Positions 349-60,895 of a stretch of DNA of 64,000 nucleotides are shown here, piece by piece (within the stretch, counting starts at the first letter, position 1; each line of letters starts with the position of its first letter). The notes under the pieces are model-generated. The model was not told the DNA's origin, made no database searches, and saw nothing but the letters and a program-made list of their open reading frames with translations. Location of the stretch: NCBI RefSeq assembly GCF_002831625.1, contig NZ_CP025116.1, positions 372,001-436,000 of the forward strand. Direction: 5' to 3'. A program made the position numbers and the translations under genes. This DNA is from Nonlabens sp. MB-3u-79 (GTDB lineage: Bacteria > Bacteroidota > Bacteroidia > Flavobacteriales > Flavobacteriaceae).

Positions 349-364
349 CGCTTTCGCGAAAGCG
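349..364. repeat. Dispersed palindrome, copy 1 (intergenic)
   Basis: Perfect CGCTTTCGCGAAAGCG in the divergent intergenic region upstream of prfC. First of 14 copies in the window. Confidence 0.95.
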
Positions 365-541
365 AGAAAACAACAGTTGTAAGGGCACTTCATTTACTTA
401 AGTCAGAGAACTCCATACTTTCAAAGGTAGTTTTAGCAAAAGAACAAACACCTTAAAGAGATACAAAGCAAATTACCACATCAATACGGTGATTTAACAA
501 CCTGATATGCAAAATTCTATTCTATAGTAAATACATTGTTC

Positions 542-549
542 TATTTTTG
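542..549 (+). promoter_or_regulatory. Possible -7 box of prfC
   Basis: TATTTTTG matches the Bacteroidota TAnnTTTG consensus and lies 20 bases before the prfC ATG. I see no TTG at the proper -33 distance, so this is tentative. Confidence 0.3.
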
Positions 550-569
550 CAACCTGATTAATTAGACAC

Positions 570-2180: not shown

Positions 2181-2395
2181 TCATTGTCCCGCTCTATTAA
2201 CTAATTTAACGTGTTCCAGAGAGCATCATTCCTTTAAATAGGTTGTTTTAAAAACAGCAGCTAGCCAAGTTTACATCCTGAGATTTGGATAGAAAACAAA
2301 GGCCTTTTAAGACGGTTATGACCTTAGTTTGATTTGAACAATTCCTATTTTTCATCTCATTTAATCAGTTTGGAAAAAACAATAATGATCACACT

Positions 2396-2437
2396 AAAAA
2401 AGGCGCTTCTCCTGCATTGGAGTTAAGGGCCTTTTTT
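2396..2437. terminator. Bidirectional terminator between prfC and the PorE-like gene
   Basis: AAAAAAGGC (2396-2404) pairs with GCCTTTTTT (2429-2437), with an inner CTCC/GGAG pair. It lies just past the stop of the convergent minus-strand gene and can serve prfC from the other side. Confidence 0.7.
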
Positions 2438-2446
2438 AATAATGTA

Positions 2447-4438: not shown

Positions 4439-4459
4439 GTTAAAATTCTATATGGATTA

Positions 4460-5395
4460 TTAGAAGAACCGTGGTGTAATGATACGTTCGTAATTATTGA
4501 ACAATTCAAATCTTAGGAATAATTCATAGCTACCGTCATTAAAAATAGCATTTCCTAATGCCGTCGTCTCCCGATCATATGCAAAGCCTATCATCATTTG
4601 ATCACTTATCTGAAACCCTACAAGACCTGTCACAGCCGCACTCCACCGGTAAGCTACTCCTAAAGTTAACCTATCATTGAATAAAAAATTTGCTGAAAGA
4701 TCTATTTGTACGGGCGCCCCTTGAACGAGCTTCAACATCGTAGCTGGCTTGAACTTGACATCCTCATTTAAATCAAACACATAACCCGCTGTCGCAAATA
4801 AGTGAATTCGTTCTTGTGCTATATAAGTCGTACTGCGGTTGTTTTCAGTACCGTCAAAGTGATCTGTCTGTAAGAGGTTAGGGCTGCTTAATCCCAAATA
4901 AAGCTTCTCTGTATGGTAATACAAGCCCAGACCTAGAGTAGGCGAAAGTTTATTATCTATATTCTCTGACAGTCTAGGATCTCCCAAGTCAAAAGGGTTG
5001 AGCCTTCTATAATCTACATTTAAAACATGAATACCTCCTTTTATTCCAAAACTCAATCTGGCCTGATCACCAACTAGCAGGGTATAACTAAAGTCTGCAG
5101 CTACGTAAGTCTCATCTGAGGGACCTATTTCATCATTCACTATACTCAATCCTATACCTACCCGACTATTGGAAAGAGGTGTATGAAAAGACAAGGTTTG
5201 AGTATGTGGCGCGCCATCGAGTCCTACCCATTGACTTCTGTGAAGACCGACAATACTTGCCACTCCTCGATTTCCAGCATAGGCAGGATTCACCACTATA
5301 GGATTGTACATATACTGACTGTACTGTGGATCTTGTTGTGCCGTCACCGCTTTCGCGAAAGCGAAAAATAATAAACAACTTACTAGTTTCTTCAT
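4460..5395 (-). CDS. PorP/SprF family type IX secretion membrane protein
   Basis: The 311-residue product starts at the ATG at 5395 (MKKLVSCLLF), not at the upstream in-frame ATG at 5416, because this gives a normal signal peptide. The mature start QQDPQYSQYMYNPIVVNPAYAG is the hallmark of PorP/SprF, outer-membrane beta-barrel proteins connected to type IX secretion and adhesin export. The hydrophobic/cleavage part of the signal peptide is itself encoded by the dispersed palindrome (AFAKA, residues 12-16). It is transcribed together with the downstream PorE-like gene. Its cargo is unknown. Confidence 0.92.
   Translation of the reverse strand: MKKLVSCLLFFAFAKAVTAQQDPQYSQYMYNPIVVNPAYAGNRGVASIVGLHRSQWVGLDGAPHTQTLSFHTPLSNSRVGIGLSIVNDEIGPSDETYVAADFSYTLLVGDQARLSFGIKGGIHVLNVDYRRLNPFDLGDPRLSENIDNKLSPTLGLGLYYHTEKLYLGLSSPNLLQTDHFDGTENNRSTTYIAQERIHLFATAGYVFDLNEDVKFKPATMLKLVQGAPVQIDLSANFLFNDRLTLGVAYRWSAAVTGLVGFQISDQMMIGFAYDRETTALGNAIFNDGSYELFLRFELFNNYERIITPRFF
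5348..5363. repeat. Dispersed palindrome, copy 2 (in the PorP/SprF signal peptide)
   Basis: Perfect CGCTTTCGCGAAAGCG; read in frame as AFAKA at residues 12-16 of the PorP/SprF protein. Confidence 0.95.
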
Positions 5396-5772
5396 GCAAG
5401 AGATGATTACAAACAAGTTCTGTCTAAAAATTAAAACTTGATTTAATATCTATTAATAGATAAAAGTACAGCTTTATTGATGGTCTGATGTTAACCGTCC
5501 AGATATTCTATGACTTAGAGGTATACCGACAGGGCAAATCATTTTGTGTGGTTAGATTTGATGGCATGGGCCAAGCGCGTTTTGAAAGAGGTTGAAACGC
5601 TATTTTAGACAAGAACGAAGGCATAAACCGATCTTGAGGACCTATTGATACGACAAATGCTTTGAGGCCTTAGAGGGCTTGTATGAAAGGGGTGCTACTT
5701 GATGTTTTCGCCTTAGGTGTATTGTATTTTTTAAATAAAAAAAGCCTAATGATAAATCATCAGGCTTTAATA
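5396..5772. other. Intergenic region between PorP/SprF gene and the rpoBC operon end
   Basis: The stretch contains the promoter side of the porP-like gene and the terminator of the rpoC/DUF3467 transcript at its right end. I translated the middle (about 5500-5720) in several frames and found only short, stop-interrupted pieces without a recognisable family. Confidence 0.6.
5741..5768 (-). terminator. Terminator of the rpoBC-DUF3467 operon
   Basis: AAAGCCT (5741-5747) pairs with AGGCTTT (5762-5768) with an inner ATGA/TCAT stem. On the minus strand the stem is followed by a T-run, immediately after the DUF3467 stop. Confidence 0.8.
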
Positions 5773-10445: not shown

Positions 10446-10461
10446 CGCTTTCGCGAAAGCG
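10446..10461. repeat. Dispersed palindrome, copy 3 (between rpoB and rpoC)
   Basis: Perfect CGCTTTCGCGAAAGCG, extended to a 22-bp perfect palindrome by flanking TTT/AAA (10443-10464). It sits in the 91-base rpoB-rpoC gap and would form a hairpin in the transcript. Confidence 0.95.
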
Positions 10462-21036: not shown

Positions 21037-21052
21037 CGCTTTCGCGAAAGCG
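21037..21052. repeat. Dispersed palindrome, copy 4 (intergenic)
   Basis: Perfect CGCTTTCGCGAAAGCG between the acyl-CoA dehydrogenase stop and the rpsU promoter. Confidence 0.95.
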
Positions 21053-22312: not shown

Positions 22313-23176
22313 TCAATCTAATGACAAATATAGCTGAATTAAACCTAATTTTTCCTGCGGAAACCTAGATGTTAACATGACTTTATCCCAACTTTTAAAA
22401 CCATCCCTTAAAGTTCTCTGCTCCACAAGCTTTTCTACTAGATAGTCGTCAAAATATGGAATAGATAACAACTCTTCTTCAGTAGCCGTGTTCAATGCTA
22501 TTTTTAAAAACCCTGATGGCGGGGTCACATAGAAATGCTTTTTTAACTGAATCATGGTCGAGTCCGTAAGTCCGTAAACACCTCTTACCTGTGAGATATC
22601 GATAAATCCCTTGAGGCGTCCCCTTTCTTGCAGTATCCTGCTAGATAGCGCTGGGCCTATACCGTATACTTTTTTGAGCTCCTCCTGACTTGCCGCATTA
22701 ATATCTTTTGCCACCACTTTGCGACCCTGAAGCCATGTGTTGTCGTTTTTGTAAGAGTTCTCAGGCCTGGTCACCCAATCTGGAAATTTAAAATAAGGAG
22801 CTATGCTATCCAACCACTGATTGCTTACTTGTGTGACTTGCTGGAAATCTTTCCTAGAATTGATAAATTTTCCGCTTTCGCGAAAGCGGTGCAATCGATC
22901 TATTTCTTCTACATTAAGACCTAGTTTATAACCTCTATAATCTGTAATATAATTGGGATTGAAAGGATAAATGGTATCTCTCCTTCTTTGTTGTACTGCT
23001 GCAAGAGAGTCTACTTTACTCTGATAGGTCGTTGTATCTTTTAAACTCAAGACTTCTTTAGGCTTTTGTTTTACGTAAATAAAAACAGCCAGCACGACAA
23101 TTAAAAGTAGCATTAACACAAAAATCCCTCTTTGCTGTTTTCTATCAAATGCAAAGAGGGATTTAAAATTTTTCAT
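22313..23176 (-). CDS. Helix-hairpin-helix (ComEA-like) membrane-anchored protein
   Basis: The 287-residue product has one N-terminal transmembrane segment (IFVLMLLLIVVLAVFIYV, about residues 18-36) and tandem helix-hairpin-helix motifs: LNVEEIDRLHRF..., DINAASQEELKKVYGIGPALSSRI near residue 158-180, and LNTATEEELLSIPYFDDYLVEKLVEQR. Such proteins are ComEA-like DNA-binding proteins for natural transformation, but Bacteroidota HhH proteins are poorly characterised. The dispersed palindrome encodes RFRES (about residues 97-101) within the first HhH-like region. It is 9 bases downstream of the symporter gene. Confidence 0.85.
   Translation of the reverse strand: MKNFKSLFAFDRKQQRGIFVLMLLLIVVLAVFIYVKQKPKEVLSLKDTTTYQSKVDSLAAVQQRRRDTIYPFNPNYITDYRGYKLGLNVEEIDRLHRFRESGKFINSRKDFQQVTQVSNQWLDSIAPYFKFPDWVTRPENSYKNDNTWLQGRKVVAKDINAASQEELKKVYGIGPALSSRILQERGRLKGFIDISQVRGVYGLTDSTMIQLKKHFYVTPPSGFLKIALNTATEEELLSIPYFDDYLVEKLVEQRTLRDGFKSWDKVMLTSRFPQEKLGLIQLYLSLD
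22873..22888. repeat. Dispersed palindrome, copy 5 (in HhH protein gene)
   Basis: Perfect CGCTTTCGCGAAAGCG, read as RFRES. Confidence 0.95.
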
Positions 23177-26554: not shown

Positions 26555-27823
26555 TTAAGGGCGCAGTAATGCGACTCCTATATCGCAGCTCAAGCATTTA
26601 TTCACATCACAGTAATTGGGCTTTAGCTGTAATAAAGATTGTGTTTGCAAGGCGTTTTCTACCTTAAAAAGCTTTCTAAAACCAGTTGTAATCGTATTCT
26701 TCTCTGGTTTCAATTGGTACATTAATTCCAGCAACTCTTCTGTGATATCTTTTGCGATAGCTCTGGCATGCATAAATTTTATAGGTACGATACAGTTGAT
26801 AATTAATAAATCGATAAAATCTGTAGTAAGTACTTTTTCTCTTTCTTCGGTTTTTTTATCAAATACATGATGCGTATCCCAATACTTAGCTGCTTTTACT
26901 TCAAAAAGTTGGTGGATTTCTGTTCTGGATTTAGCAAGAAGAAGGGCTCCAAAAAGAACTGGATTTTTTTGATACAATCTCGCGAGCTGTGAAATCCTGA
27001 TGGTAGGATAATTAGCCGGACGCAGCCTAAAGAATTTCATAGGGGTTAAAGAGGCTTTTAAGTTGTGTTTCGCTTTCGCGAAAGCGTACTCATCAGCCAA
27101 CTCTTTATAATAAGGATCTTTTTTACTTTCCTGCAACAAGCCTGCCTGACCTAATAAGGCGGCTTCTAACTGGAATGCATCTTTTGCTAATTTGCGTACC
27201 ACGGCCTGATCCATACTACTGGCGAGCTGTTCAAAGGCATCGGCATTTATGTTTGTGCCAAAACTTCTCGACAGCAACTGAAAAAAAGCAGCTTCCCAAT
27301 CGTTATTATTTTGGTCCAACATGTGTTTTATACGATCAGACTTCTGCGCTAATCTCTCAAAAAATAACTTTTCTAACCACAAGTCTCGCTTAAAAGAATC
27401 TATACGGGAAAACTGACTTTCACAGTTGATGAATTGGTTGTTTTTTACGGCAAAAAGTTGGTTGTAGGACTGCACTAAATCTGGAGTAACGTACTGCGAT
27501 ACTTCCAATACAGGGATGTTGATTCCATCTCTTCTCGTAATTTCTGCATCATGCATCCAGACAACATGCAGAATAACGTTATCATAAGCCGGATCATCGT
27601 CATGACCGTGAAGATACCAGTCACTTGCTTTGATGTGCATCTCTATATTGCCAGCCCAATCCTGACCATCAATTTCTACACGACCGTTAAAGAAGTCTGG
27701 TCCAGAAAAGAAATTATGTGTTCCCAGAGATTTTATTTTCACCTGTTTCCCCTCAGTAGTAAGCAGTTCCTGACCGCTTAACTTCTTAAATTTCCAGAGG
27801 TAATGTATAAAATCTTCTTGCAT
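26555..27823 (-). CDS. DUF2851 family protein
   Basis: The 422-residue product begins MQEDFIHYLWKFKKLSGQEL and carries NFFSGPDFFNGRVEIDGQDWAGNIEMHIKASDW, the hallmark of DUF2851, plus a C-terminal CDVNKCLSCDIG cysteine cluster. The family is widespread in Bacteroidota and its N-terminal part resembles a nuclease-like fold, but no activity is established to my knowledge. The dispersed palindrome encodes AFAKA at about residues 247-251 (EYAFAKAKHN). It often neighbours a PspC-like gene, as here. Confidence 0.88.
   Translation of the reverse strand: MQEDFIHYLWKFKKLSGQELLTTEGKQVKIKSLGTHNFFSGPDFFNGRVEIDGQDWAGNIEMHIKASDWYLHGHDDDPAYDNVILHVVWMHDAEITRRDGINIPVLEVSQYVTPDLVQSYNQLFAVKNNQFINCESQFSRIDSFKRDLWLEKLFFERLAQKSDRIKHMLDQNNNDWEAAFFQLLSRSFGTNINADAFEQLASSMDQAVVRKLAKDAFQLEAALLGQAGLLQESKKDPYYKELADEYAFAKAKHNLKASLTPMKFFRLRPANYPTIRISQLARLYQKNPVLFGALLLAKSRTEIHQLFEVKAAKYWDTHHVFDKKTEEREKVLTTDFIDLLIINCIVPIKFMHARAIAKDITEELLELMYQLKPEKNTITTGFRKLFKVENALQTQSLLQLKPNYCDVNKCLSCDIGVALLRP
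27071..27086. repeat. Dispersed palindrome, copy 6 (in DUF2851 gene)
   Basis: Perfect CGCTTTCGCGAAAGCG, read as AFAKA. Confidence 0.95.
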
Positions 27824-30575: not shown

Positions 30576-31361
30576 TTAAAGACTCTTCGTTCTTCCACCG
30601 TCTACTGGCAAGTTGACACCGTTGATATATCCAGCTTTGTCACTGGCTAAAAATGTAATCGCATTAGCTACTTCTTCTGGCTCGGCAAATCTTCTTGCAG
30701 GCACATGACCTTTCATGATTTCGGCAGCTTGTTCTTCACTCTGCCCAGCTCTTGAAGCTTTTCCCGAAATAATTTTATCCAATCTATCGGTTGCGGTAAA
30801 ACCAGGTAATATGTTATTTACAGTAATGCCGTGAGGGCCCAACTCGGTCGCTAGTGTTTTTGCCCAGCTGGCCACTGCTCCACGTATCACGTTAGAAACA
30901 CCTAAGAATTCGATAGGCGCTTTTACACTGGTAGAAATCACATTGATCACCCTTCCATAACCGGCCTCTTTCATTCCTGGAGCACAAGCTTGAATCAATA
31001 CCTGATTGCATTTTACATGTTGTGTAAAAGCTTGTTCTAAGGCATCGACTTCTGCATCGATTAAGAATCCTGGTGCAGGGCCGCCTGTGTTATTGATGAT
31101 GATGTGGATGGGGTTCGCTTTCGCGAAAGCGGAAACCACAGCTCCCACTTCCTTATAATTAGAAAAATCAGCAACCAAATACGTATGGTCATCGCGCTGG
31201 CTTTTATCTAATTCATTGAGAACTTCCTGAAGTTTATTTGGATTGCGCGCCAGTAAAATTACGCGAGCACCTGCCTGAGCAAACTGTATGGCTGTTGCTC
31301 TTCCTATTCCTGTACTGCTCCCACAAACCAGAGCAGTTTTATTTTTTAAGTCAATGTTCAT
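30576..31361 (-). CDS. SDR-family oxidoreductase, divergent active site
   Basis: The 261-residue Rossmann protein has TGxxxGIG as CGSSTGIGRA (residues 14-23), NNTGGP (residues 90-95) and the C-terminal GYINGVNLPVDGG. At the catalytic position, where Y-x3-K is usual, I read SNVIR in FLGVSNVIRG, so Tyr and Lys are absent; the first Ser is kept (ISTS). This is a known type of divergent SDR subgroup. It is encoded upstream of the ACMSD-like gene with a 128-base gap. The palindrome encodes AFAKA at residues 78-82. Confidence 0.85.
   Translation of the reverse strand: MNIDLKNKTALVCGSSTGIGRATAIQFAQAGARVILLARNPNKLQEVLNELDKSQRDDHTYLVADFSNYKEVGAVVSAFAKANPIHIIINNTGGPAPGFLIDAEVDALEQAFTQHVKCNQVLIQACAPGMKEAGYGRVINVISTSVKAPIEFLGVSNVIRGAVASWAKTLATELGPHGITVNNILPGFTATDRLDKIISGKASRAGQSEEQAAEIMKGHVPARRFAEPEEVANAITFLASDKAGYINGVNLPVDGGRTKSL
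31116..31131. repeat. Dispersed palindrome, copy 7 (in SDR gene)
   Basis: Perfect CGCTTTCGCGAAAGCG, read as AFAKA. Confidence 0.95.
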
Positions 31362-32648: not shown

Positions 32649-33413
32649 ATGAAAAAACTCTTTAAATTCTTTCTCAACCTCATCCCCAGACCTTGGCTTA
32701 TAAGTGCCAGTTATTATGTGCGTCCATTGATCACCTGGTGGTATCGTGGCGAGCAATATGAAGACCCTATTGATGGAAAGACCTTTAAAAGTTTCTTGCC
32801 TTATGGCTATGAAAAGGTGCGGGAGAATGTGCTTTCTCCATCCACACTTTCATTAGAGCGCCATCGACTGCTTTGGCTGTACCTGAAGCACAAAACCGAT
32901 TTACTTAGTAGACCACAAAAGTTGTTGCATTTTGCTCCAGAGCAATGTTTTTATAAACGCTTTCGCCAAAGCAAGACCATCAACTACACCACCACCGACC
33001 TTAATTCGCCACTTGCTGATGTGTCTGCCGATATCTGTAATCTGCCATTTGCTGATAATGAATTTGATTTTATTCTTTGCAATCACGTCTTAGAACATAT
33101 TCCAGACGATTTTAAAGCGATGCAAGAAATCTTTAGAGTTCTTAAACCTGGTGGGAAGGCGATTCTACAAATACCATTAGACAATGATCGCGATCTAACA
33201 TTTGAAGATGATTCTATCACCGATCCTAAAAAACGCGCTCGTATTTTTGGACAATACGACCATGTGCGTGTTTATGGAATGGATTATTTTGACCGGTTAG
33301 AAAAAGCAGGTTTTACAGTTGCCGCAGTGGATTACACCAAAGAACTAGGGGCTCAACAAGTAGACCGTTACCGACTTGCCGCTGGGGAGTTGATTCCTGT
33401 GGTGAGTAAATAA
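32649..33413 (+). CDS. SAM-dependent methyltransferase (class I)
   Basis: The 254-residue product starts at either of two ATGs (32634 or 32649); I chose the second since MKKLFKFFLNLIPR is the more typical N terminus. It has a C-terminal Methyltransf_11-type domain: DLNSPLADVSADICNLPFADNEFDFILCNHVLEHIPDD and EIFRVLKPGGKAIL. The substrate is unknown; it could act on lipid or glycan. A worn palindrome copy encodes KRFRQS at about residue 104-109. Confidence 0.82.
   Translation: MKKLFKFFLNLIPRPWLISASYYVRPLITWWYRGEQYEDPIDGKTFKSFLPYGYEKVRENVLSPSTLSLERHRLLWLYLKHKTDLLSRPQKLLHFAPEQCFYKRFRQSKTINYTTTDLNSPLADVSADICNLPFADNEFDFILCNHVLEHIPDDFKAMQEIFRVLKPGGKAILQIPLDNDRDLTFEDDSITDPKKRARIFGQYDHVRVYGMDYFDRLEKAGFTVAAVDYTKELGAQQVDRYRLAAGELIPVVSK
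32958..32973. repeat. Degenerate copy of the dispersed palindrome
   Basis: CGCTTTCGCCAAAGCA differs from the consensus at two positions and lies in the RFRES frame (read RFRQS) of the methyltransferase gene. Probably a decayed copy. Confidence 0.6.
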
Positions 33414-35627: not shown

Positions 35628-35643
35628 CGCTTTCGCGAAAGCG
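35628..35643. repeat. Dispersed palindrome, copy 8 (intergenic)
   Basis: Perfect CGCTTTCGCGAAAGCG in the divergent region between the NqrF-like gene and the GH92 gene. Confidence 0.95.
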
Positions 35644-38661: not shown

Positions 38662-40107
38662 ATGGACATAAAAAATTTCATCAATAATGAAGAGCAAATC
38701 CCTTTATCAGGATTTTGGTTGGATAATTATGAACCTGCATCAGGAACTATTTATGGGGAGATACCCAATTCTAACGAAGATGATGTGGAGAAAGCTTATC
38801 AAGCCGCAAAAGCAGCTTTTCCATCTTGGTCGAACACATCAATTGATGAGCGCTCTAAAATCATGTTGCGCATCGCAGACTTGATAGAAGAAAATCTAGG
38901 AGCTCTCGCTGCAGCAGAATCTCGTGATAATGGGAAACCTGTATGGCTGGCTCAAGCTGTTGACATACCGCGAGCGTCTTCTAATTTTAGATTCTATGGT
39001 CATGCCATTACTCAATATGCTACTAAAGCTCATGAAAGTGTTGGCAAGAACACCATGAATTATACAATACGCAAACCTATAGGTGTCGTAGGTTGTATCT
39101 CCCCGTGGAATTTACCTCTGTATTTATTTACCTGGAAAATTGCTCCAGCCATCGCCGCTGGAAATTGTGTGGTAGCTAAGCCTAGTGAAGTGACGCCTGC
39201 CACCGCTTATTTATTGGGTGAAATCGTTGAAAAAGCTGGTTTGCCTGCTGGAGTTCTCAACATCGTTCATGGAAATGGAGCGAGCTGTGGTCAAGCAATT
39301 GTCGCGCATCCAGATATCAAAGCCATCAGTTTTACTGGAGGGACCACAACTGGCGCGCACATTGCAAGAACTGCTGCACCTATGTTTAAGAAACTTTCTT
39401 TGGAATTGGGAGGTAAGAACCCCAACCTCATTTTCGCTGACTGTGATTATGATAAAATGCTAGATACCACAGTGCGTTCCTCCTTTGCAAATCAAGGTCA
39501 GATCTGTCTTTGCGGCAGCCGTATTTTTGTGCAGCAGGAGATTTATGAGCGGTTTAAAACAGACTTTGTTGATCGTGTGAAGAACCTGAGAGTTGGTCAT
39601 CCAGACCAGTCTAGCACCAAAGTAGGTGCCTTGGTCAGTGCTGGTCATAGAGAAAAGATTGAAGAGTACCTCGCTTTCGCGAAAGCGGAACCAGAAAACT
39701 ACCGCATCTTAACCGGCGGAAACCGTGTCATCGTAAAAGAATATGAAAAGGGTTATTACCTAGAACCCACCGTAATCGAAGTGTCCTCCAACGACTGCAA
39801 ACTGAATCAAGAAGAGATCTTCGGACCGGTGGTGACCATCATGCCATTTACCGACGAAGCTCACGCACTAGAACTCGCAAACGGCACTAAATACGGACTC
39901 AGCGCGACTTTGTGGACCAACGATTTATCCAGAACCATGAGAATGACGCAAGAAATCGAAGCCGGAATAGTATGGGTCAACACCTGGCTGAATAGGGATT
40001 TGCGCACCCCTTTTGGCGGCGTAAAAGACAGCGGCGTAGGTCGTGAAGGTGGCTTTGAAGCTTTGGACTTCTTTACCGAACCTAAGAATGTTTGTATTGA
40101 GTATTAA
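38662..40107 (+). CDS. Aldehyde dehydrogenase, 2-aminomuconic/hydroxymuconic semialdehyde type
   Basis: The 481-residue NAD-dependent enzyme has PWNLPLYLFTWKIAPA (Asn of the oxyanion hole), FTGGTTTG (cofactor), LELGGKNPN (Glu) and nucleophile Cys in FANQGQICLCGSR. The C-terminal VNTWLNRDLRTPFGGVKDSG is the mark of muconic-semialdehyde/ALDH8-type enzymes. It fits the kynurenine/aminomuconate route with the ACMSD-like gene at 29365. The palindrome encodes AFAKA at residues 338-342. It lies 17 bases after the GH92 stop, probably without functional meaning. Confidence 0.88.
   Translation: MDIKNFINNEEQIPLSGFWLDNYEPASGTIYGEIPNSNEDDVEKAYQAAKAAFPSWSNTSIDERSKIMLRIADLIEENLGALAAAESRDNGKPVWLAQAVDIPRASSNFRFYGHAITQYATKAHESVGKNTMNYTIRKPIGVVGCISPWNLPLYLFTWKIAPAIAAGNCVVAKPSEVTPATAYLLGEIVEKAGLPAGVLNIVHGNGASCGQAIVAHPDIKAISFTGGTTTGAHIARTAAPMFKKLSLELGGKNPNLIFADCDYDKMLDTTVRSSFANQGQICLCGSRIFVQQEIYERFKTDFVDRVKNLRVGHPDQSSTKVGALVSAGHREKIEEYLAFAKAEPENYRILTGGNRVIVKEYEKGYYLEPTVIEVSSNDCKLNQEEIFGPVVTIMPFTDEAHALELANGTKYGLSATLWTNDLSRTMRMTQEIEAGIVWVNTWLNRDLRTPFGGVKDSGVGREGGFEALDFFTEPKNVCIEY
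39672..39687. repeat. Dispersed palindrome, copy 9 (in aldehyde dehydrogenase gene)
   Basis: Perfect CGCTTTCGCGAAAGCG, read as AFAKA. Confidence 0.95.

Positions 40108-41071: not shown

Positions 41072-41085
<14 letters not shown>
40525..41085 (+). CDS. REP-associated tyrosine transposase (RAYT, Y1_Tnp)
   Basis: The 186-residue product begins MNDRIEGDKYYHIFNQANG, carries the HUH motif KNHFHLVV (near residue 55) and the late tyrosine segment ILYVHSNPVKDGFVEDIISYPWSSY. This is the RAYT branch of the IS200-like superfamily, thought to act on REP hairpins and to be a domesticated, single-copy gene. Two long hairpin-bearing repeats precede it. Its stop overlaps the TTG start of the next gene by 14 bases. 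Confidence 0.92.
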
Positions 41086-42486
<1,401 letters not shown>

Positions 42487-42693: not shown

Positions 42694-44208
42694 TTGAATA
42701 AGCAAACGATTTTAATGATTCTCGACGGTTGGGGAATCACACAAGACCCAAAAGTAAGTGCTATTGCGCAAGCAAACACTCCTTTTATAGATAGCCTATA
42801 TAAGAAATACCCTCACGCCACCTTGCGTACTGACGGTGAGCACGTAGGACTTCCTGAAGGACAAATGGGAAATAGCGAGGTAGGTCACATGAACCTCGGT
42901 GCGGGTAGAATTGTCTATCAAGATCTTGCCAAAATCAATAAAGCCATAAAAGACGACACGCTTAAGGAAGAGAAAGTGCTGGTGGATGCTCTCGCTTTCG
43001 CGAAAGCGAACTCTAAAAAAGTACATTTCTTAGGATTGTTATCTGATGGTGGTGTTCATGCCCATATCAATCATTTAAAAGCATTGCTAGATATAGCGAG
43101 CGACCATGAAGTGGAAGAGGTTTTTATCCACGCATTTACTGATGGCCGAGATGTAGATCCTAAATCTGGCGCTGGTCATGTGGAAGACTTGATGAATTAC
43201 ATAAGCGGTACCAATGCACAGTTAGCATCTGTTACTGGACGTTATTTTGCCATGGACAGAGACCAACGTTGGGAACGTGTAAAGAAAGCTTATGATGTGA
43301 TCGTGCACGGTATGGGTCTTCCTACACATGATCCTGTTGTCGCGATAAAAGAGAATTATAAAAAGGGTGTTACTGATGAGTTTATAGAACCTATAGTCGT
43401 GCTCAACGGCACTGAGCCTGCAGGTTTAGTAGAAGAAGGCGATGTGGTTATTTTCTTTAATTATAGAACTGACAGAGGCCGCGAACTAACTCAAATGTTA
43501 TCCCAAAAAGATTTTCATGAGCAAAATACACATGCGCTGGATCTGTACTATGTCACCATGACTAAATATGATGAAAGCTACAAAAACATCAAGATCATCT
43601 TTGAAAAAGACAACCTTAAAAACACATTAGGAGAAGTCCTTTCTGCTGCTGGGAAAAAACAAATACGTATTGCAGAAACAGAAAAGTACCCCCATGTGAC
43701 CTTTTTCTTTAATGGTGGTCAAGAAGAACATTTTCCTGGAGAAAGCCGGTTGATGTGTAACTCTCCTAAAGTAGCTACTTATGACTTGCAACCTGAAATG
43801 TCTATAGATTGCGTAACTAGCAGTATCATTCCAGAAATTAATAAAAAAACAGCCGATTTTATATGCCTTAATTTTGCCAATCCAGATATGGTTGGACATA
43901 CCGGCTCTATGGAAGCAGCGGTAAAAGCATGTGAGGCTGTAGATGCTGCAGCAAACGAAGTCATTACTGCTGCCATTGAAAACGATTACACAGTGATCGT
44001 TATAGCAGACCACGGAAATTGCGAGGTAATGCTCAACCCCGATGGATCTGTAAATACAGCACACACCACTAATCCTGTTCCTATTATTATAGTCGATAAA
44101 GATATTAAAGAAGTAAAAGACGGGATTCTAGGGGACATCGCTCCTACTGTATTAAAGTTAATAGGTGTACAACAACCAAGTGAAATGACACAAAAATCAT
44201 TAATTTAG
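42694..44208 (+). CDS. gpmI: 2,3-bisphosphoglycerate-independent phosphoglycerate mutase
   Basis: A 504-residue, Mn-dependent glycolytic enzyme that interconverts 3- and 2-phosphoglycerate. Motifs: ILDGWG (metal Asp), GQMGNSEVGHMNLGAGR (catalytic Ser), HAFTDGRDVDP, YRTDRGRELTQ, FANPDMVGHTG and ADHGNCE (metal Asp/His). The start codon is TTG. The palindrome encodes AFAKA at residues 101-105, in the variable stretch before VHFLGLLSDGGVHAH. The thioredoxin lipoprotein gene follows after 4 bases. Confidence 0.96.
   Translation: MNKQTILMILDGWGITQDPKVSAIAQANTPFIDSLYKKYPHATLRTDGEHVGLPEGQMGNSEVGHMNLGAGRIVYQDLAKINKAIKDDTLKEEKVLVDALAFAKANSKKVHFLGLLSDGGVHAHINHLKALLDIASDHEVEEVFIHAFTDGRDVDPKSGAGHVEDLMNYISGTNAQLASVTGRYFAMDRDQRWERVKKAYDVIVHGMGLPTHDPVVAIKENYKKGVTDEFIEPIVVLNGTEPAGLVEEGDVVIFFNYRTDRGRELTQMLSQKDFHEQNTHALDLYYVTMTKYDESYKNIKIIFEKDNLKNTLGEVLSAAGKKQIRIAETEKYPHVTFFFNGGQEEHFPGESRLMCNSPKVATYDLQPEMSIDCVTSSIIPEINKKTADFICLNFANPDMVGHTGSMEAAVKACEAVDAAANEVITAAIENDYTVIVIADHGNCEVMLNPDGSVNTAHTTNPVPIIIVDKDIKEVKDGILGDIAPTVLKLIGVQQPSEMTQKSLI
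42993..43008. repeat. Dispersed palindrome, copy 10 (in gpmI)
   Basis: Perfect CGCTTTCGCGAAAGCG, read as AFAKA. Confidence 0.95.
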
Positions 44209-44904: not shown

Positions 44905-45975
44905 TTGAACCTTCACTTTTCAAATCGCTATGTGCTCAACGCAACGCTCATTATTTGCTGGCTAGCCACCGCTTTTATAGGTTTTAATGGTTTTTTTAAA
45001 TCTCATGATTTACTGACAGTTTCTTTATTTAATTATCACATTCCGGACGCATTGACTTTTTTACTAGCTGTAATGATGTTCTCATTACCAGTTACAGGAC
45101 TATTTATTAATGTAAGAATAGCCAAGTGGCTGCTTGTTATTTCAGTCTTTTTATACCTAGTCCTTATTGTCTTCGACTTGCACAGATTGACTCCATACAT
45201 GATTGTCTATCTAGGTGTATTTGCGGCACTTATTTTACTCAAATACGACTCCAGCATTCTATACACCGCATTACTGATCATCGCTTCTGGAATTTATATA
45301 TTTAGCGGTTTACACAAACTCAACATAGGTTTTGTCATAGATATTGCACCACGCTTTTGGTTGTATTCCTTGCCATTTAATTACACTAATACCATAGGAT
45401 ATGGTTTTGCCATCATAGAAATAGTTGCTGGATTATTACTGCTGTTACCGCTTACGCGAAAACTTGCTTGCATCCCACTCCTCCTACTACACACTCTGAT
45501 TATATGGAAACTAGGACCGTGGAAACTGGACTGGAACTCGATCGTATTGCCGTGGAATTTCTTGATGATCGTGATCTTAATTTACCTGTTTAGAAAAAGT
45601 GCTTTATCGACATTTAGAATAGGTTCTGCTCAACCCATTATGATTGTTTTAGGAGTTTTCTTTTGGTTGTTGCCAGCACTTTCACAAATCATATGGATTC
45701 CTGAGAACTTGAGCATGATGCTTTATTCGGGGAAATCAAAAAGTGGTTATCTCGTACTGAATGATCATATGGATCGGTTATCATCCTACGACCGCATTCC
45801 TGAAAAAGAAAAAATGCTCATCAGCCTGCAACGTCTTTCCATGGAAGAACGCGGTATTGCCATACATCCAGAACTAAAGATTTACGATAAAATATTAGAA
45901 AACTTCAAGTCCAAAATCCCGCAAACAGACCGTATTTATTATATAGATCCCAATAAAATAGCCGAAAAACTATGA
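44905..45975 (+). CDS. Polytopic membrane protein of unknown function
   Basis: A 356-residue protein starting at TTG 44905, with about eight to nine hydrophobic segments (for example LIICWLATAFIGFNGFF and IVLPWNFLMIVILIYLF) and a soluble C-terminal tail of about 80 residues. I do not recognise its family. It overlaps the downstream cupin gene by 4 bases (ATGA), so the two are translationally coupled. A weak palindrome-like piece (45449-45464, three mismatches) lies in it. Confidence 0.7.
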   Translation: MNLHFSNRYVLNATLIICWLATAFIGFNGFFKSHDLLTVSLFNYHIPDALTFLLAVMMFSLPVTGLFINVRIAKWLLVISVFLYLVLIVFDLHRLTPYMIVYLGVFAALILLKYDSSILYTALLIIASGIYIFSGLHKLNIGFVIDIAPRFWLYSLPFNYTNTIGYGFAIIEIVAGLLLLLPLTRKLACIPLLLLHTLIIWKLGPWKLDWNSIVLPWNFLMIVILIYLFRKSALSTFRIGSAQPIMIVLGVFFWLLPALSQIIWIPENLSMMLYSGKSKSGYLVLNDHMDRLSSYDRIPEKEKMLISLQRLSMEERGIAIHPELKIYDKILENFKSKIPQTDRIYYIDPNKIAEKL

Positions 45976-46553: not shown

Positions 46554-47861
46554 TTACTTACGCAGCAAGGTTAAACTCTCTCTTAAACTAGAAAAACTAG
46601 GTGTTTTATCAGTGTATTCTTGACGCAATACTTTCTTTTCTTCATCTGTAGCTCCTATTTGTTCCAGCATATTGACCAGGTGCATTTTCATGTGTCCGGC
46701 TTGTATCCCTGTAGTTACTAAAGAATGTAAGGCAGCAAAGTTTTGAGCGAGCCCTGCAACCGCAGTTACCTTCATCAAATACTCAGCAGTAGGATTTCCT
46801 AAAATTTGTATGGCGAGTTTGGATAGTGGATGTAGGGATGTAAGCCCACCAACAGTTCCCAAAGCCAGTGGAAAATCAGCTTCAAAGATAAAGCTGTCGT
46901 TTTCTATTCGCGCACGAGTAAGACTTCGGTATTGTCCATCTCTAGAAGCAAAAGCATGCACTCCAGCCTCAACGGCTCTAAAATCATTTCCTGTAGCAAT
47001 GACTACCGCATCAATGCCATTCATGATTCCTTTGTTATGGGTTACCGCACGATAAGGTTCTACGGTGGCAATGTCCACAGCACGGACAAATTTTCTGGCA
47101 AACTCTGCCCCAGTCACTCCATTAATAGTTCCTATCTCCTCTATTTTACAGGACACCGATACGTTTACAAGACAGTCGGGAACGTAATTGCTCAAGATGC
47201 TCATGATCACCTCTGGCACATCGCTTGAGAAGCCTTGAAATTCGGCCGCTTTTTGTCTTAAAGTCGTTGACAGTTGCTCGAGTGTGGTGTTGATAAAGTT
47301 AGCACCCATGGCATCACGGGTTTCAAAGGTGGCATGCAACTGGTAATAGCCTTCGAGGCTTTTGGTTTTATCTACTAAGCTCAATTCTTGAATACCGCCA
47401 CCACGTTTTTTCATCGAGGCGTTGATTTGTTCTAGGGATTCTAATAATTCCGCTTTCGCGAAAGCGTAAAAAGCATCCATCTCACTGCCCAAACCATGAT
47501 ACATCAAATGTACTTGTCCAGATTTAAGAGTGCCTTTGATCTGTGTTTTAAAACCACCGCGATCCAGCCAAAACTTAGCGGCTTTACTCGCTGCAGCCAC
47601 CACACTACTTTCTTCAATCGCCATGGGAATGGTGACCAATTCCTGATCGATTAAAAAATTAGGCGCAAGACCAAATGGAAAAAAGTAGTTGGTTACTGTA
47701 TTTTCACTAAAACCGTCGTGAAGATCCTGTAATTTTTGATCTTCATTCCAGTATTGAATAAGCGTTTGTCGAGCCGTAGCGCTATCATCAAGGTGATGGG
47801 AAACCAGCCAATCTATCTTTTGAGATTTAGAAAGTTTTGAAAATCCAGTAACAGGTTGCAT
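46554..47861 (-). CDS. Hydroxymethylglutaryl-CoA reductase (class II type)
   Basis: The start is taken at the ATG at 47861 (MQPVTGFSKLSKSQKIDWL), giving 435 residues; an in-frame ATG 30 bases upstream has no support. HMGR motifs: DAMGANFINTTLEQ (substrate and Asp), HNKGIMNGIDAVVIATGNDFRAVEAG (catalytic Lys/Asp), and LAQNFAALHSLVTTGIQAGHMKMH (His). It makes mevalonate, the isoprenoid precursor. The palindrome encodes AFAKA in FYAFAKAELLE. No other mevalonate gene is nearby. Confidence 0.9.
   Translation of the reverse strand: MQPVTGFSKLSKSQKIDWLVSHHLDDSATARQTLIQYWNEDQKLQDLHDGFSENTVTNYFFPFGLAPNFLIDQELVTIPMAIEESSVVAAASKAAKFWLDRGGFKTQIKGTLKSGQVHLMYHGLGSEMDAFYAFAKAELLESLEQINASMKKRGGGIQELSLVDKTKSLEGYYQLHATFETRDAMGANFINTTLEQLSTTLRQKAAEFQGFSSDVPEVIMSILSNYVPDCLVNVSVSCKIEEIGTINGVTGAEFARKFVRAVDIATVEPYRAVTHNKGIMNGIDAVVIATGNDFRAVEAGVHAFASRDGQYRSLTRARIENDSFIFEADFPLALGTVGGLTSLHPLSKLAIQILGNPTAEYLMKVTAVAGLAQNFAALHSLVTTGIQAGHMKMHLVNMLEQIGATDEEKKVLRQEYTDKTPSFSSLRESLTLLRK
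47451..47466. repeat. Dispersed palindrome, copy 11 (in HMG-CoA reductase gene)
   Basis: Perfect CGCTTTCGCGAAAGCG, read as AFAKA. Confidence 0.95.
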
Positions 47862-51841: not shown

Positions 51842-52366
51842 ATGAAATTATTCACTATAGTATTTCTGTTTATTTCGGCTTTTGGCTTTTCTCAAGTCAA
51901 CTGGATGAGTATGAATGATGCCCTTGCTGCACAGAAAAAAGAACCTCGTAAAATTTTGATGAAATCCTACACAGACTGGTGTCCTAATTGTAAATGGATG
52001 GATAAGTACGCTTTCGCGAAAGCAGATATCGCCACATACATCAACGAGAACTATTACCCCGTAAAATTTAATGCCGAAGGAAGTGAAGTGATCAACTACA
52101 AAGGTGCTACCTACGCTAATCCGCTTAAAAAGCGCAACGATCGCGCGCAACATCAATTTGCTGAATTTATAAGAATATTTGAATATCCTACACTGGTATT
52201 TTTTGATGAAAAAGGAACCATTATCAATCCAGTTCCTGGCAAATTAGATGCTAAAAAGTTGGAAATCTACATCACCATGCTCGCAGACGAGACTTATAAG
52301 TCCATCAACACGGGGAAAAAATGGAACGATTACCAGCGTGATTTTAAATACAAACTACAAGATTAA
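51842..52366 (+). CDS. Secreted thioredoxin-fold protein (WCPNC)
   Basis: The 174-residue product has a signal peptide (MKLFTIVFLFISAFGFSQ), then TDWCPNCKWMDKY (Cys47, Cys50) and a cis-Pro in IFEYPTLVFFD, so a thioredoxin-like disulfide protein of the periplasm. The dispersed palindrome (ending CA rather than CG) encodes AFAKA at residues 57-61, in the helix just after the active site. It is convergent with comEC, the coding regions overlapping by 4 bases. Confidence 0.88.
   Translation: MKLFTIVFLFISAFGFSQVNWMSMNDALAAQKKEPRKILMKSYTDWCPNCKWMDKYAFAKADIATYINENYYPVKFNAEGSEVINYKGATYANPLKKRNDRAQHQFAEFIRIFEYPTLVFFDEKGTIINPVPGKLDAKKLEIYITMLADETYKSINTGKKWNDYQRDFKYKLQD
52009..52024. repeat. Dispersed palindrome, copy 12 (in thioredoxin gene)
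   Basis: CGCTTTCGCGAAAGCA, one difference at the outer base, core intact; read as AFAKA. Confidence 0.9.
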
Positions 52367-54451: not shown

Positions 54452-55171
54452 TTAATCGATTCTTCCAGCTCTTAAGAAAGCATCTATCCAATAGGCTTCG
54501 TTCAAAGTAGACGTCATCACACCTCTCGATGTAGTGGAATGTATGAATTCAATTTCTCCAGGAGTTACTCTTGTAATCAGTGCAACATGATTGACCTGTC
54601 GCTTGTTTTTACCAGTGGCAAAGAATAGAAAATCTCCCTTCCTCACCTGATCCAGATCCAGCGCATCAGCTTTTAAATAAATAGAACGGCTGCTCCGCGG
54701 TATACTTTTGCCAGCTTCTTCAAAAGCCGTAGAAATCAAACCACTGCAATCCATTCCTTTTGCAGTAGTGCCTCCATAACGGTATTTCACTCCTTTATAT
54801 CGCATCGCATTTTCCACTATTTGGTCTATAAAAGGAGTGCTTTCTGCATAGGGCTTGTCATTTGATTCTACCTCCAGTTGCACTTCTTCTATTTCCTCTA
54901 TCTCCGTTTCGTCGCCATATGTTGTAGGGCTTTTATAAACACCGGCTCTCGGTGCCTTTACAGCTTCCTTTTTAGTTGTAATTACGCTAGGCCTAGAACT
55001 TCCACAAGAAGTTAGTCCTAAGGAAAGCAGTAAGACTACTGACGATAAAACTATAGAAACAGATTTTTTATTGCTGTTGTTTTGCTTTCTATTTGTTCCG
55101 CTTTCGCGAAAGCGGAATAAAAAAAAACTGATGCCATACTTGCGATAAGAAAGTGGAATGATTAAACGCAT
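54452..55171 (-). CDS. NlpC/P60 (C40) cell-wall peptidase, lipoprotein
   Basis: The C-terminal half is a C40 cysteine peptidase: AKGMDCSGLISTAFEEAG (Cys), VNHVALITRV (His) and EFIHSTT. It cuts peptidoglycan stem peptides. The only in-frame start is the ATG at 55171, giving a long N-terminal stretch before a lipoprotein signal (VLSSVVLLLSLGLTSC). That stretch (residues 20-24, RFRES) is the dispersed palindrome. A nine-A run at 55119-55127 could allow slippage onto the alternative ATG at 55137. Confidence 0.85.
   Translation of the reverse strand: MRLIIPLSYRKYGISFFLFRFRESGTNRKQNNSNKKSVSIVLSSVVLLLSLGLTSCGSSRPSVITTKKEAVKAPRAGVYKSPTTYGDETEIEEIEEVQLEVESNDKPYAESTPFIDQIVENAMRYKGVKYRYGGTTAKGMDCSGLISTAFEEAGKSIPRSSRSIYLKADALDLDQVRKGDFLFFATGKNKRQVNHVALITRVTPGEIEFIHSTTSRGVMTSTLNEAYWIDAFLRAGRID
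55099..55114. repeat. Dispersed palindrome, copy 13 (in C40 lipoprotein N terminus)
   Basis: Perfect CGCTTTCGCGAAAGCG, extended to TTCCGC...GCGGAA; read as RFRES before the lipoprotein signal. Confidence 0.95.
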
Positions 55172-57524: not shown

Positions 57525-57635
57525 AAGATATTTAAGGTGGTTAAAATTAAGTAAATTAGCCGTACCATGTAAGATTCTTACCTTACTTTAACCTTCTTAA
57601 ATTGGCACGGTTTTTACATGCATAGAAAGAGACAA

Positions 57636-59792
57636 ATGAAAATCCTTATGAATTTCCTAAAAAACAATTTTATACTGGCAGTTTTTACCCTACTTGTAGC
57701 AACAGCTAGCTGTAGTTTTACTAACGATACGGTAGACCCTGGAGATAAAGAAAAAGAACAGTTGCTGGTCAACTTGATTTCCCATGTTTTAAAAAGAAAT
57801 CACTTTTCTCCAGCAGACTTAACAGATGAATTCTCAAAAGATATTTTTGATAATTACGTCAAAGACCTTGATCCTGGAAAAAGATATTTCCTAGAAAGTG
57901 ACTATAAAGAATTTCAAGCCTATGAATATTTGATTGATGATCAAATACGTGATAGTAAAGTAGATTTATTCAATCTTACTTATGAAAGACTGCTGCAACG
58001 TCAAGAAGAATCTCAAAAGATATTTACAGAATTAATTAAGAAACCATTTGATTTTTCCATTGATGAAAGCATCAATACGGATTATGATAAAATCCCTTAT
58101 TCAAAAAATAAAAAAGAATTAAAAGACCACTGGAGAAAACTTTTAAAGCTATCTGCTTTAGGAACTTATTACGATAAGGTGGAAGAACAAAAAGAAAATC
58201 CAGAAGAAGAGCAAAAGAGTCTTGTGGAATTAGAAAAAGAAACCAGAGCAGAGATTAAGAAATCAATGCTAGAGAACTTTGACCTCACTGACGATGTAGA
58301 GCGGTTGGACTATTTCTCTGTTTTTGTAAATACCATCACCACACATTTTGATCCTCACACTAATTTTTTCCCACCACAAACCAAAGATCGTTTTGACACC
58401 TCTATGAGTGGAAAGTTAGAAGGAATAGGAGCTAGACTTCAAAAGAAGATGGATTACATCAGTGTGTTAGAAATCATTTCTGGTGGACCGGCATGGAAAA
58501 GTGAACTGATTGAAGTAGGAGATAAAATCCTTAAGGTTGCTCAAGAAAACGACACTATGGCTACATCTATTGTAGGTATGAGAATAGGAGATGCGGTAGA
58601 ACTGATCAAAGGACCTAAAGGAAGTAAAGTAATTCTAACGCTTAAAAAAGTAGACGGCTCTATTGAAGATATAACTCTTACAAGGGATATCGTTCAAATA
58701 GAAGAAACTTTTGCTAAGTCGGTTATAGGAAAAGACGATGCTTTTAGATTTGGGTTTATCAATTTACCTAAATTTTATTTTGACATGGAAGACCCTAGTG
58801 GGCGTGCTGCTGGTAATGATGTCTCTCAAGAAATTAAAAGGCTCAAGACCGAAGGTATGGACGGACTTATCATAGACCTGAGAAATAACGGCGGCGGTTC
58901 TTTAAGAGAGGTGATTGAAATGGCAGGATTATTTGTCGATAAAGGACCTGTAGTACAAGTTGCTTTAAAAGACAAAAGAACACGAACTTTAAGAGATAGC
59001 GACAGCGGTGAAATTCTCTGGGAAGGACCTTTAGTTATTATGGTCAATGAATTCAGTGCGAGTGCTAGTGAAATTCTTGCTGCTGCTTTACAAGATTATG
59101 ACCGTGCAGTGATTATAGGAAGTAAGCAAACCTTTGGAAAAGGAACGGTACAGAATTTTGAAGACTTGAACCAATGGGTACGTAATAATGAATACGGAGA
59201 CTTAGGAGCTATCAAGTTAACCACCCAAAAATTCTATAGAATTAATGGTGGGAGCACACAACTCGAAGGGGTGAAAAGTGATGTGGTAACCCCTGGAAGA
59301 TACAGTTATATTTTAGTAGGAGAACGCGACGAGCAGTACCCTCTTCCTTATGATGAAATCCCAAAGGCTGAATATGACAAATTTACTGGTTATGCAAATC
59401 TATCCGAGTCCATTAAAAAGGCTCAGAAAAGAGTTGATGCAAATCCAAATTTTAAGCTATTGGATGAAAACGCAAAATGGTTGAGCAATCAAAGAGAAGA
59501 TAATAACATTACTTTAAATTTTACCGCTTACAAAGAGCGTTTAGACCGCCTTGAAAAAGAAACAGAAAAATTTGAATCTTTATCTGACTATAAGAACACT
59601 TTAGATTTTGACATGCTCGCCTATGAGAAAGCATTAGTTAAAACTGACAGTGCTTTAGGAGACAAACGTGAAGCATGGATAAAGAATCTTAAAAAAGATG
59701 TTTATGTGGAAGAAGCTGTAAATGTTCTTAAGGATCTGCGCATGAATAATATCAAAAATGACAACAAGACTAAATGGAGTGTTAAGGACTAA
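57636..59792 (+). CDS. prc: Carboxy-terminal processing protease (tail-specific, S41), lipoprotein
   Basis: The 718-residue product starts near 57636 or 57648; both give a lipoprotein signal (FTLLVATASC). Domains: N-terminal TSP-like region, PDZ (IGARLQKKMDYISVLEIISGGPAWKSELIEVGDKIL), the S41 core with Ser in NEFSASASEILAAAL and Lys in SKQTFGKGTVQ, and a C-terminal DUF3340-like region. It degrades periplasmic proteins with exposed C-terminal ends. Its stop overlaps the start of the permease gene (TAATG). Confidence 0.93.
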   Translation: MKILMNFLKNNFILAVFTLLVATASCSFTNDTVDPGDKEKEQLLVNLISHVLKRNHFSPADLTDEFSKDIFDNYVKDLDPGKRYFLESDYKEFQAYEYLIDDQIRDSKVDLFNLTYERLLQRQEESQKIFTELIKKPFDFSIDESINTDYDKIPYSKNKKELKDHWRKLLKLSALGTYYDKVEEQKENPEEEQKSLVELEKETRAEIKKSMLENFDLTDDVERLDYFSVFVNTITTHFDPHTNFFPPQTKDRFDTSMSGKLEGIGARLQKKMDYISVLEIISGGPAWKSELIEVGDKILKVAQENDTMATSIVGMRIGDAVELIKGPKGSKVILTLKKVDGSIEDITLTRDIVQIEETFAKSVIGKDDAFRFGFINLPKFYFDMEDPSGRAAGNDVSQEIKRLKTEGMDGLIIDLRNNGGGSLREVIEMAGLFVDKGPVVQVALKDKRTRTLRDSDSGEILWEGPLVIMVNEFSASASEILAAALQDYDRAVIIGSKQTFGKGTVQNFEDLNQWVRNNEYGDLGAIKLTTQKFYRINGGSTQLEGVKSDVVTPGRYSYILVGERDEQYPLPYDEIPKAEYDKFTGYANLSESIKKAQKRVDANPNFKLLDENAKWLSNQREDNNITLNFTAYKERLDRLEKETEKFESLSDYKNTLDFDMLAYEKALVKTDSALGDKREAWIKNLKKDVYVEEAVNVLKDLRMNNIKNDNKTKWSVKD

Positions 59793-60895
59793 TGTCTTTT
59801 AAAACCACATCATTAAGTTCTCTAGCGCTCCAGAAGTTTAAAAAAAACTTCTGGGGCGTTTTGAGTTTTCTTATTATTCTATTTTATGCATTAGTTGCCA
59901 TATTTGCATACGTCATAGCTCCAGACGATACGCAATACGCAAACCAAATGCACATTTCTATACATTCCCAACCACCAGGTTTTACTGTGGATATGTTAGC
60001 TCTTCCCTCAACTACCGCCGAAACTAGTTTTTGGGACTGGTGGAATGGAAAAAAATCTACCCTGCAAGAAATCCCTTATGCCGATTTAAAAATCGAGAAG
60101 GGCACTATTTTCTACCGGCCTTTTGATGTGGACGGTAAGGAACTCTCTTTTGTAGATGCAAATTTTAGCGTTGATAAGGATCTGGAATTGTCTCGCTTTC
60201 GCGAAAGCTACACCTCACAAAAAACATTTCTATTAGGTACCGACAAATATGGTCGTGATCTATTAAGTCGCATGATGATAGGGACGAGAATAAGTATCTC
60301 TATTGGTTTTGTAGCGGTGTTGATCTCCTTACTTATAGGTGTTTTTTTAGGAGCTATTTCAGGGTATTACGGCGGTAAAATAGATGCTGCCATCATGTGG
60401 CTGATCAATGTAACCTGGTCCATACCTACTTTACTGATGGTTATCGCTATTAGCATCGCATTAGGAAAAGGCTTTCTCACTGTTTTTATTGCAGTAGGGC
60501 TTACCATGTGGGTAGAAGTGGCACGTGTGGTGCGTGGACAGATGATTGTAGCCAAAGAATACCAATACGTAACCGCAGCAAAAGCTTTAGGCTTTGATAA
60601 TTTTAGAATTATCACCCGACATATTTTACCTAACATCATGGCACCAGTCATTGTCATTAGTGCAGCAAATTTTGCAGCTTCCATACTTATAGAAAGTGGC
60701 TTGAGCTTTCTAGGATTAGGCGCACAACCACCAATGCCCAGTTGGGGCAGTATGATTAAAGATCATTATCAGTACATCATTCTTGACAAGGCTTATCTTG
60801 CCATAGTGCCAGGAATCGCAATCATGACTTTAGTAATGGCATTTATGCTCTTAGGAAATGCACTGCGAGACGCACTGGATGTAAAAACAAGTTAA
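59792..60895 (+). CDS. OppC/DppC-type ABC transporter permease
   Basis: The 367-residue permease has the N-terminal OppC-like helix (FLIILFYALVAIFAYVIAP) and BPD_transp_1 region with TDKYGRDLLSRMMIGTRISI and ARVVRGQMIVAKEYQYVTAAKALGFDN (EAA loop). Between helix 1 and 2 there is a ~120-residue periplasmic insert, containing RFRES (residues 135-139) from the palindrome. No ATPase or binding protein gene is next to it; its partners are elsewhere. It shares a transcript with the protease and nuclease genes. Confidence 0.9.
   Translation: MSFKTTSLSSLALQKFKKNFWGVLSFLIILFYALVAIFAYVIAPDDTQYANQMHISIHSQPPGFTVDMLALPSTTAETSFWDWWNGKKSTLQEIPYADLKIEKGTIFYRPFDVDGKELSFVDANFSVDKDLELSRFRESYTSQKTFLLGTDKYGRDLLSRMMIGTRISISIGFVAVLISLLIGVFLGAISGYYGGKIDAAIMWLINVTWSIPTLLMVIAISIALGKGFLTVFIAVGLTMWVEVARVVRGQMIVAKEYQYVTAAKALGFDNFRIITRHILPNIMAPVIVISAANFAASILIESGLSFLGLGAQPPMPSWGSMIKDHYQYIILDKAYLAIVPGIAIMTLVMAFMLLGNALRDALDVKTS
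60194..60209. repeat. Dispersed palindrome, copy 14 (in OppC-type gene)
   Basis: CGCTTTCGCGAAAGCT, one difference at the outer base, core intact; read as RFRES. Confidence 0.9.

Follow-up and report, generated by a model that had tools for sequence, protein, structure and literature searches.

A strict 14-bp palindrome iterated across Nonlabens chromosomes, a possible docking site for a dimeric DNA-binding protein

The window analyzed here, a stretch of 64,000 nucleotides from Nonlabens sp. MB-3u-79 (contig NZ_CP025116.1, positions 372,001 to 436,000), contains 14 copies of the exact 14-bp palindrome GCTTTCGCGAAAGC. Across the 3.18 Mb genome from which the window is taken (G000) there are 563 copies, or about one per 5.7 kb, and the reversed-word control does not occur at all. 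We tentatively favor a reading in which this motif is a methylation-independent docking site, similar to HIP1 of cyanobacteria, for a putative dimeric DNA-binding protein, with selection acting on the density of sites and a role in the upkeep of the chromosome.

The strictness of the motif is apparent in a sample of the genome consisting of 60 stretches of 20 kb together with the window (1.264 Mb, 40% of the genome; 1.2575 Mb unmasked). The initial annotation had described a sequence-specific motif and named a genome-wide count near expectation as the result that would overturn this description; the test goes in favor of the motif, since the unmasked sample holds 235 exact copies where base composition predicts 0.002. 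Exact, one-mismatch and two-mismatch forms number 235, 27 and 17 in the sample, compared to 0, 0 and 3 for the reversed control. The one-mismatch 14-mers are above chance (27 against 0.08 expected), as decay of copies would give, and those of the inner 10-mer come close to the chance number (58 against 44 expected). There are 270 forward occurrences of the half-site GCTTTCG, of which 235 are inside whole palindromes; as about 46 are expected outside palindromes from base frequencies, half-sites are not enriched. A search of the sample for looped hairpins between half-sites found none. In the window, 16 matches were found at up to two mismatches, while 100 dinucleotide shuffles gave a mean of 0.20 and a maximum of 1. 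All 14 positions listed earlier for a 16-bp form of the palindrome are right, with the 14-mer beginning one base after each of them; the full 16-mer is present in 12 of the 14 copies and, as had been claimed, only the outermost base varies, on the 3' side of the copies with 14-mers at 52010 and 60195.

The copies are conserved site by site in related genomes. At a flank identity of 81%, all 11 alignable sites of the window are exact in G002, where evolution at the rate of the flanks would leave 0.79; for G005 the figure is 9 of 13 against 3.6 expected, and for N. xylanidelens 5 of 6 against 0.37. Sites that could not be aligned were dropped (3 of 14 for G002 and 1 of 14 for G005), and the three comparisons, having ancestry in common, are not independent of one another. 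Where orthologues align, copies have arisen through substitution in place and not through insertion. In the phosphoglycerate mutase gene (iPGM), the copy of Nonlabens stands, with no gap in the alignment, in place of residues that other genera encode as, for example, AFEYAKKNN (a residue search recovered them from 34 of 80 loci and gave nothing for the other 46). The iPGM copy lies at an offset of 498 in G250 and 501 in G234, two motif-rich genomes from outside Nonlabens, against 300 in the window's genome, so that the site sets of the two clades differ.

Placement of the sampled copies relative to genes, made with our own simple gene finder, puts 146 of the 235 inside genes (62%; 88, 30 and 28 in the three frames) and 89 between genes, where the density is 3.2 times higher. 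Intergenic density is 7.2 per 10 kb between divergent genes, 4.1 between co-directional genes and 2.9 between convergent genes (p 0.015; five edge sites excluded). Copies within genes of the window encode AFAKA or RFRES, and several of the sampled AFAKA copies look like the ends of apparent signal peptides. The copies are also spaced apart from one another. For the first 100 copies the coefficient of variation (CV) of spacing is 0.69, against 0.99 ± 0.10 for random placement, and only 3 spacings are shorter than 1.4 kb where 23.7 are expected. Counts per 20 kb in the sample are under-dispersed (index 0.64) and track GC content (rho 0.44). When 200-220 kb of each of G250, G234, G005 and G002 are pooled, 6 of 149 spacings fall below a quarter of the mean, compared to 33.0 expected. 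A single stretch of the 60 is free of copies (L159, G000:C1:2597001-2617000); it has a low GC content (0.324) and lies near the change in GC skew that we take as the terminus. The idea that site-free gaps are foreign DNA is not supported: one contains rho, an M16 peptidase and an ABC transporter, and another contains no recognized mobile gene.

The absence of any longer conserved flank, noted in the initial annotation, needs amendment, as a weak symmetric context extends for about 30 bp on each side of the motif. Half-site flanks of intergenic copies favor T at -4 (84%), -10 (67%), -7 (61%) and -13 (58%); at -1 the preferred base is C (91%). The 5' flank of each strand is rich in G/T and poor in C as far as about -30, whether the copy is coding or not, and the sequence is T-rich before and A-rich after the motif; flanks in G250 are likewise G/T-rich and C-poor on the 5' side. 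At base -2, the window's genome and G002 mostly have C or T, whereas G250 has A. Variation in one arm is independent of that in the other (z between -1.3 and 0.4), the arms being no more complementary than shuffled pairs; this speaks for two distinct half-contacts by protein, and the idea of a longer hairpin was rejected.

The motif is abundant in Nonlabens and in few other genomes. A search of relatives covered 59 genomes including the window's own (23 of the genus, 13 of other genera of the family and 23 of other families of the order): each of the 22 Nonlabens congeners has 288-857 copies, one of the 13 genomes from other genera has 6, and the 14-mer is absent from all 23 genomes of other families. 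In a family-wide sample of 397 genomes, 80 have a match, consisting of 4 Nonlabens, G234 (408 copies), G250 (857 copies) and 74 genomes with 1-19 copies; G234 and G250 are the only motif-rich genomes in this sample from outside Nonlabens. Of the 296 genomes in a phylum-wide sample, 266 lie outside the family by row count, and 6 of these have one copy each, which does not exceed the level of the reversed-word control (11 genomes). In a tree of iPGM loci, G000, G002, G005 and G021 fall among the Nonlabens loci with support of 100, and the closest named loci are from Nonlabens. G234 and G250 form one group (support 99) with G188 and G372, which carry just 9 and 6 copies; this group is separate from Nonlabens, and the backbone between the two is weak.

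DNA was inspected for 9 of the 74 low-copy genomes of the family, and the remaining 65 stand outside the reading given here. In 8 of the 9, the copies lie within or beside one family of copper-resistance islands, with genes for RND pumps, an outer-membrane efflux protein (OEP), a multicopper oxidase, P-type ATPases and an RteC protein. This island family (L171-L185) is common to at least 8 other genera and 14 of 22 Nonlabens genomes, the latter carrying the same OEP at 68-97% identity to the query. The site near column 1056 of the OEP alignment is exact in 8 of 9 OEP genes (8 genomes) and has 6 mismatches in the other; a first OEP site is gapped in the alignment and was not scored. The simplest reading of these low-copy occurrences is horizontal transfer out of motif-rich hosts. 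Some of the 65 other low-copy genomes have scattered single copies, which transfer of copper islands does not explain.

Phages differ in their content of the motif. The virulent Nonlabens phages P12024S and P12024L (35.7 kb each) are free of the motif, every match in them having 3 mismatches or more, where about 6 copies per phage would be expected at host density; as the two are close relatives, they count as one case. A viral scan returned at least 120 stretches with the 14-mer, many of them probably by chance; among the matches listed, 24 sites in 17 stretches, several of them near-duplicates, have Nonlabens-like flanks (score >4). Some uncultivated phage contigs carry the motif: L353 has three copies in Nonlabens-like flanks, one of them in a head-protease-like gene adjoining portal and capsid genes, and in L319, where the flanks of the three copies are of other kinds, one copy is in a head maturation protease gene. 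A search of the phage collection with the iPGM of the window's genome as query gave no match.

In order to find partner proteins, we searched for the methyltransferase families PF00145 (E 1e-10) and PF01555, PF02086 and PF02384 (E 1e-8) in 13 genomes, 8 of them motif-rich, and then in 21 motif-rich genomes. The genome of the window has no match to any of the four, other methyltransferase families not having been searched. G234 matches PF01555 and lacks the other three, and none of the four families is present in every motif-rich genome tested. PF02384 is found in 19 of the 21, so that a shared enzyme is excluded just by G000 and G234. A search for ParB_N in 8 motif-rich genomes gave a single match in G000, G002, G004, G005, G020, G234 and G250 and two in G019, whose extra form of 616 aa is also found in motif-poor genomes. 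A Noc-like extra ParB was considered as the reader of the motif and rejected, as G000 has no ParB/Noc paralogue. Canonical parS is separately present, with GTTTCACGTGAAAC occurring twice in the G000 sample.

From these observations we infer that the motif may be the recognition site of a two-fold symmetric, presumably dimeric, protein that would bind double-stranded DNA in Nonlabens and in a second clade of the family. Such a reader would need about one site every 4-5 kb on DNA residing in cells, so that selection would act on density, with diminishing returns, and not on the regulation of particular genes. Its most likely role would be in chromosome upkeep, through nucleoid organization, segregation or the processing of broken DNA. 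We lean against a more specific version in which the motif is a methylation-independent, density-selected mark of self or of upkeep with its own putative dimeric reader, present in the chromosome, in integrated islands and in some phages but not in virulent ones; it would be a cis signal on the scale of the genome, evolved in two clades of the family with different site sets. Several observations weigh against the docking-site interpretation. No reader protein was found, the ParB_N search of 8 motif-rich genomes having given no candidate. Three of the 13 alignable sites are broken in G005 by insertions and one by point mutation, so single sites are dispensable; likewise, not every region needs a site, because rho and other genes of housekeeping type lie in one 20-kb gap without sites. 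Significance of the spacing CV is confined to the window's own genome and G250 (0.73, P 0.011), and is not reached in G234 (0.85, P 0.19), G005 (0.86, P 0.29) or G002 (0.86, P 0.21), and the flanking context is weak in G234. There is no clear gradient from origin to terminus in the sample, with the origin guessed from GC skew (rho -0.20, p 0.12), and strand skew is untestable for a palindrome.

HIP1 (GCGATCGC, cyanobacteria) is the closest comparison among the published systems considered. Both motifs are short exact palindromes in genome-wide excess, in and between genes, and in both exact copies far outnumber near misses (for HIP1, GGCGATCGCC, Table 6 of PMC1939737 gives 5648 exact and 1830 one-mismatch forms). 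The Nonlabens motif differs in having a 14-bp core with weak symmetric context, in its density of about one per 5.7 kb, and in the one-mismatch excess of its inner 10-mer, which is 0.31 compared to 10.4 for the HIP1 decamer. An origin of the Nonlabens copies as by-products of DNA methylation and mismatch repair, as for HIP1, has in its favor that HIP1 is the nearest published case of an exact palindrome iterated through a genome (Elhai 2015, PMC4390886). The methylation model proposed for HIP1 does not fit here, because G000 holds its 563 copies and matches none of the four methyltransferase families searched; G234, without three of them, and the lack of a universal family point the same way, and we consider the by-product very unlikely. 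An ordinary operator or bidirectional terminator would account for the higher density between genes and its peak between divergent ones. However, most of the sampled copies are inside genes, convergent pairs have the lowest density, the T-rich and A-rich flanks are the opposite of a terminator tail, and hundreds of spaced-apart copies are ill-suited to a regulon, all of which leaves this explanation highly improbable. The wide spread of the motif and its horizontal movement with copper islands could suggest a selfish or mobile palindromic element, such as the self-spreading palindrome raised in the initial annotation. That suggestion is not supported by the alignments and is already largely refuted, to the point of being hardly credible: the replacement in iPGM is ungapped, as are other alignable losses and gains, the large gaps in G005 are insertions into the motif and not of it, half-sites are lacking, and the orthologue comparisons include no case in which the motif had been cleanly inserted. 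The earlier view of a sequence-specific motif of Flavobacteriaceae that is no insertion sequence is supported.

A DNA-uptake or self-recognition signal, in which DNA with the motif is preferentially taken up and sites accumulate until each fragment has one, is an unlikely but more substantial alternative. The uptake sequences of Neisseriaceae and Pasteurellaceae (DUS/USS) occur as clade dialects. They share with the Nonlabens motif hundreds of copies, over half of them in genes, and evolution in place, and the difference in base -2 between the two clades is dialect-like. The proportion inside genes is close to the 65% cited for H. influenzae in PMC1939737. In Riemerella columbina, of the same family as Nonlabens, the organism's own DNA acted as a competitor, and heterologous DNA in equal amount did not (PMC7965970). 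A ComEC-type competence gene lies within the window (52363-54429), but ComEC by itself is no evidence of competence, and the literature searched contained no uptake test in Nonlabens. Against this alternative, uptake sequences are not palindromes (PMC1939737), and one-mismatch forms are enriched in A. pleuropneumoniae (438 exact and 947 one-mismatch, Table 6), whereas near misses of the Nonlabens motif are few and those of its inner 10-mer are near chance. A protein-binding site fits better than an uptake signal because of the two-fold symmetry and the all-or-none pattern of mismatches; both survive. Chi sites, read by RecBCD or AddAB, are 5-8 bases long and polar, unlike the long, palindromic and all-or-none Nonlabens motif. 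A two-way palindromic signal of this kind, which would halt degradation from DNA ends and start recombination on host DNA, would suit the presence of the motif on some phage contigs. Its density is near that of E. coli Chi (1008 in 4.64 Mb, Table 6 of PMC1939737), and the G/T-rich 5' flank on each strand recalls the TG-rich regions near Chi mentioned in PMC3763553. The same paper reports that Chi does not serve as a site of RecA nucleation and cites codon usage as an explanation for GT-rich islands, and one-mismatch forms of Chi are abundant (8855; PMC1939737, Table 6). The RecC family has no match in any of 26 genomes, motif-rich or not (AddAB was not searched), and a Chi-like signal seems to us improbable. 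Sites of the parS, Noc-binding and matS type are palindromes of 14-16 bp that are bound by dimers and serve in chromosome work. The Nonlabens palindrome falls in the same range of length, and differs in its hundreds of copies, in the lack of an origin or terminus pattern and in the lack of a ParB/Noc paralogue in G000.

What HIP1-like genome-wide palindromes do is not settled; the published model considered here (PMC4390886) ties them to methylation. The Nonlabens palindrome is longer and stricter, and its presence in a genome without the four methyltransferase families separates the palindrome from methylation. The repulsion between sites, their conservation one by one and the existence of phages with and without the motif make the question testable in marine bacteria that are culturable and harmless, and the motif doubles as a watermark of DNA that has resided in motif-rich hosts. 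In the open-licence PMC literature searched, which does not cover subscription journals, the exact 14-mer is absent and there is no report of a highly iterated palindrome in Flavobacter-named taxa; mentions of the inner 10-mer and of Nonlabens with a palindrome were judged unrelated from the listing. A search for other iterated palindromes in other taxa (74 loci of at most 21.5 kb each) gave A/T words, a run of N in L066 and otherwise only L063 (Flavobacterium sp. ZT3R18, 21.5 kb), in which CGATAGCTATCG occurs three times, at 5146, 5214 and 20617, two of them 68 bases apart.

The individual copies in the window are given here by the coordinates of the 16-mer, with the start of the 14-mer in second place and no strand assigned. 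By our gene calls, copy 1 (CGCTTTCGCGAAAGCG, 349..364; 350) is intergenic with divergent genes on either side, and copy 8 (35628..35643; 35629) is also intergenic and divergent. Copy 3 (10446..10461; 10447) lies between ORFs of 1435 aa and 1270 aa, which, by recognition and with no search made, we take to be rpoC and rpoB. Copy 4 (21037..21052; 21038) is intergenic, and its orthologue in G005 has a gap-opening insertion of 21 bases within the site. In 200 kb of G005 there are also three copies of another palindrome, CCTGYCGGCAGG (L391 at ~18227, L393 at ~15080 and L396 at ~14793), two of these inside sites that are intact in the genome of the window. AFAKA is encoded by copy 2 (5348..5363; 5349), near the N-terminus of a PorP/SprF-family ORF (4460-5416, minus), and by copies 6 (27071..27086; 27072; DUF2851 gene), 7 (31116..31131; 31117; short-chain dehydrogenase gene), 9 (39672..39687; 39673; aldehyde dehydrogenase gene), 10 (42993..43008; 42994; iPGM, substituted in place relative to other genera) and 11 (47451..47466; 47452; HMG-CoA reductase gene). 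The orthologue of copy 9 in N. xylanidelens has 3 mismatches and no gap. Copy 12, with the 14-mer only (52010..52023) and A as its 3' neighbor, encodes AFAKA in a thioredoxin-like gene. RFRES is encoded by copy 5 (22873..22888; 22874), in the gene of a helix-hairpin-helix protein (22313-23176, minus), by copy 13 (55099..55114; 55100), near the N-terminus of an NlpC/P60 ORF, and by copy 14, again with the 14-mer only (60195..60208) and T as its 3' neighbor, in a transporter permease gene. A one-mismatch copy at 32959..32972 is exact in the G005 orthologue, and was thus either lost in the window or gained in G005; a two-mismatch match lies at 45450..45463. The window also contains, at the end of the ORF at 41072-42286, a tandem array (42265-42443) of the 7-bp unit GGCAGTA, with 25.6 copies and 99% matches.

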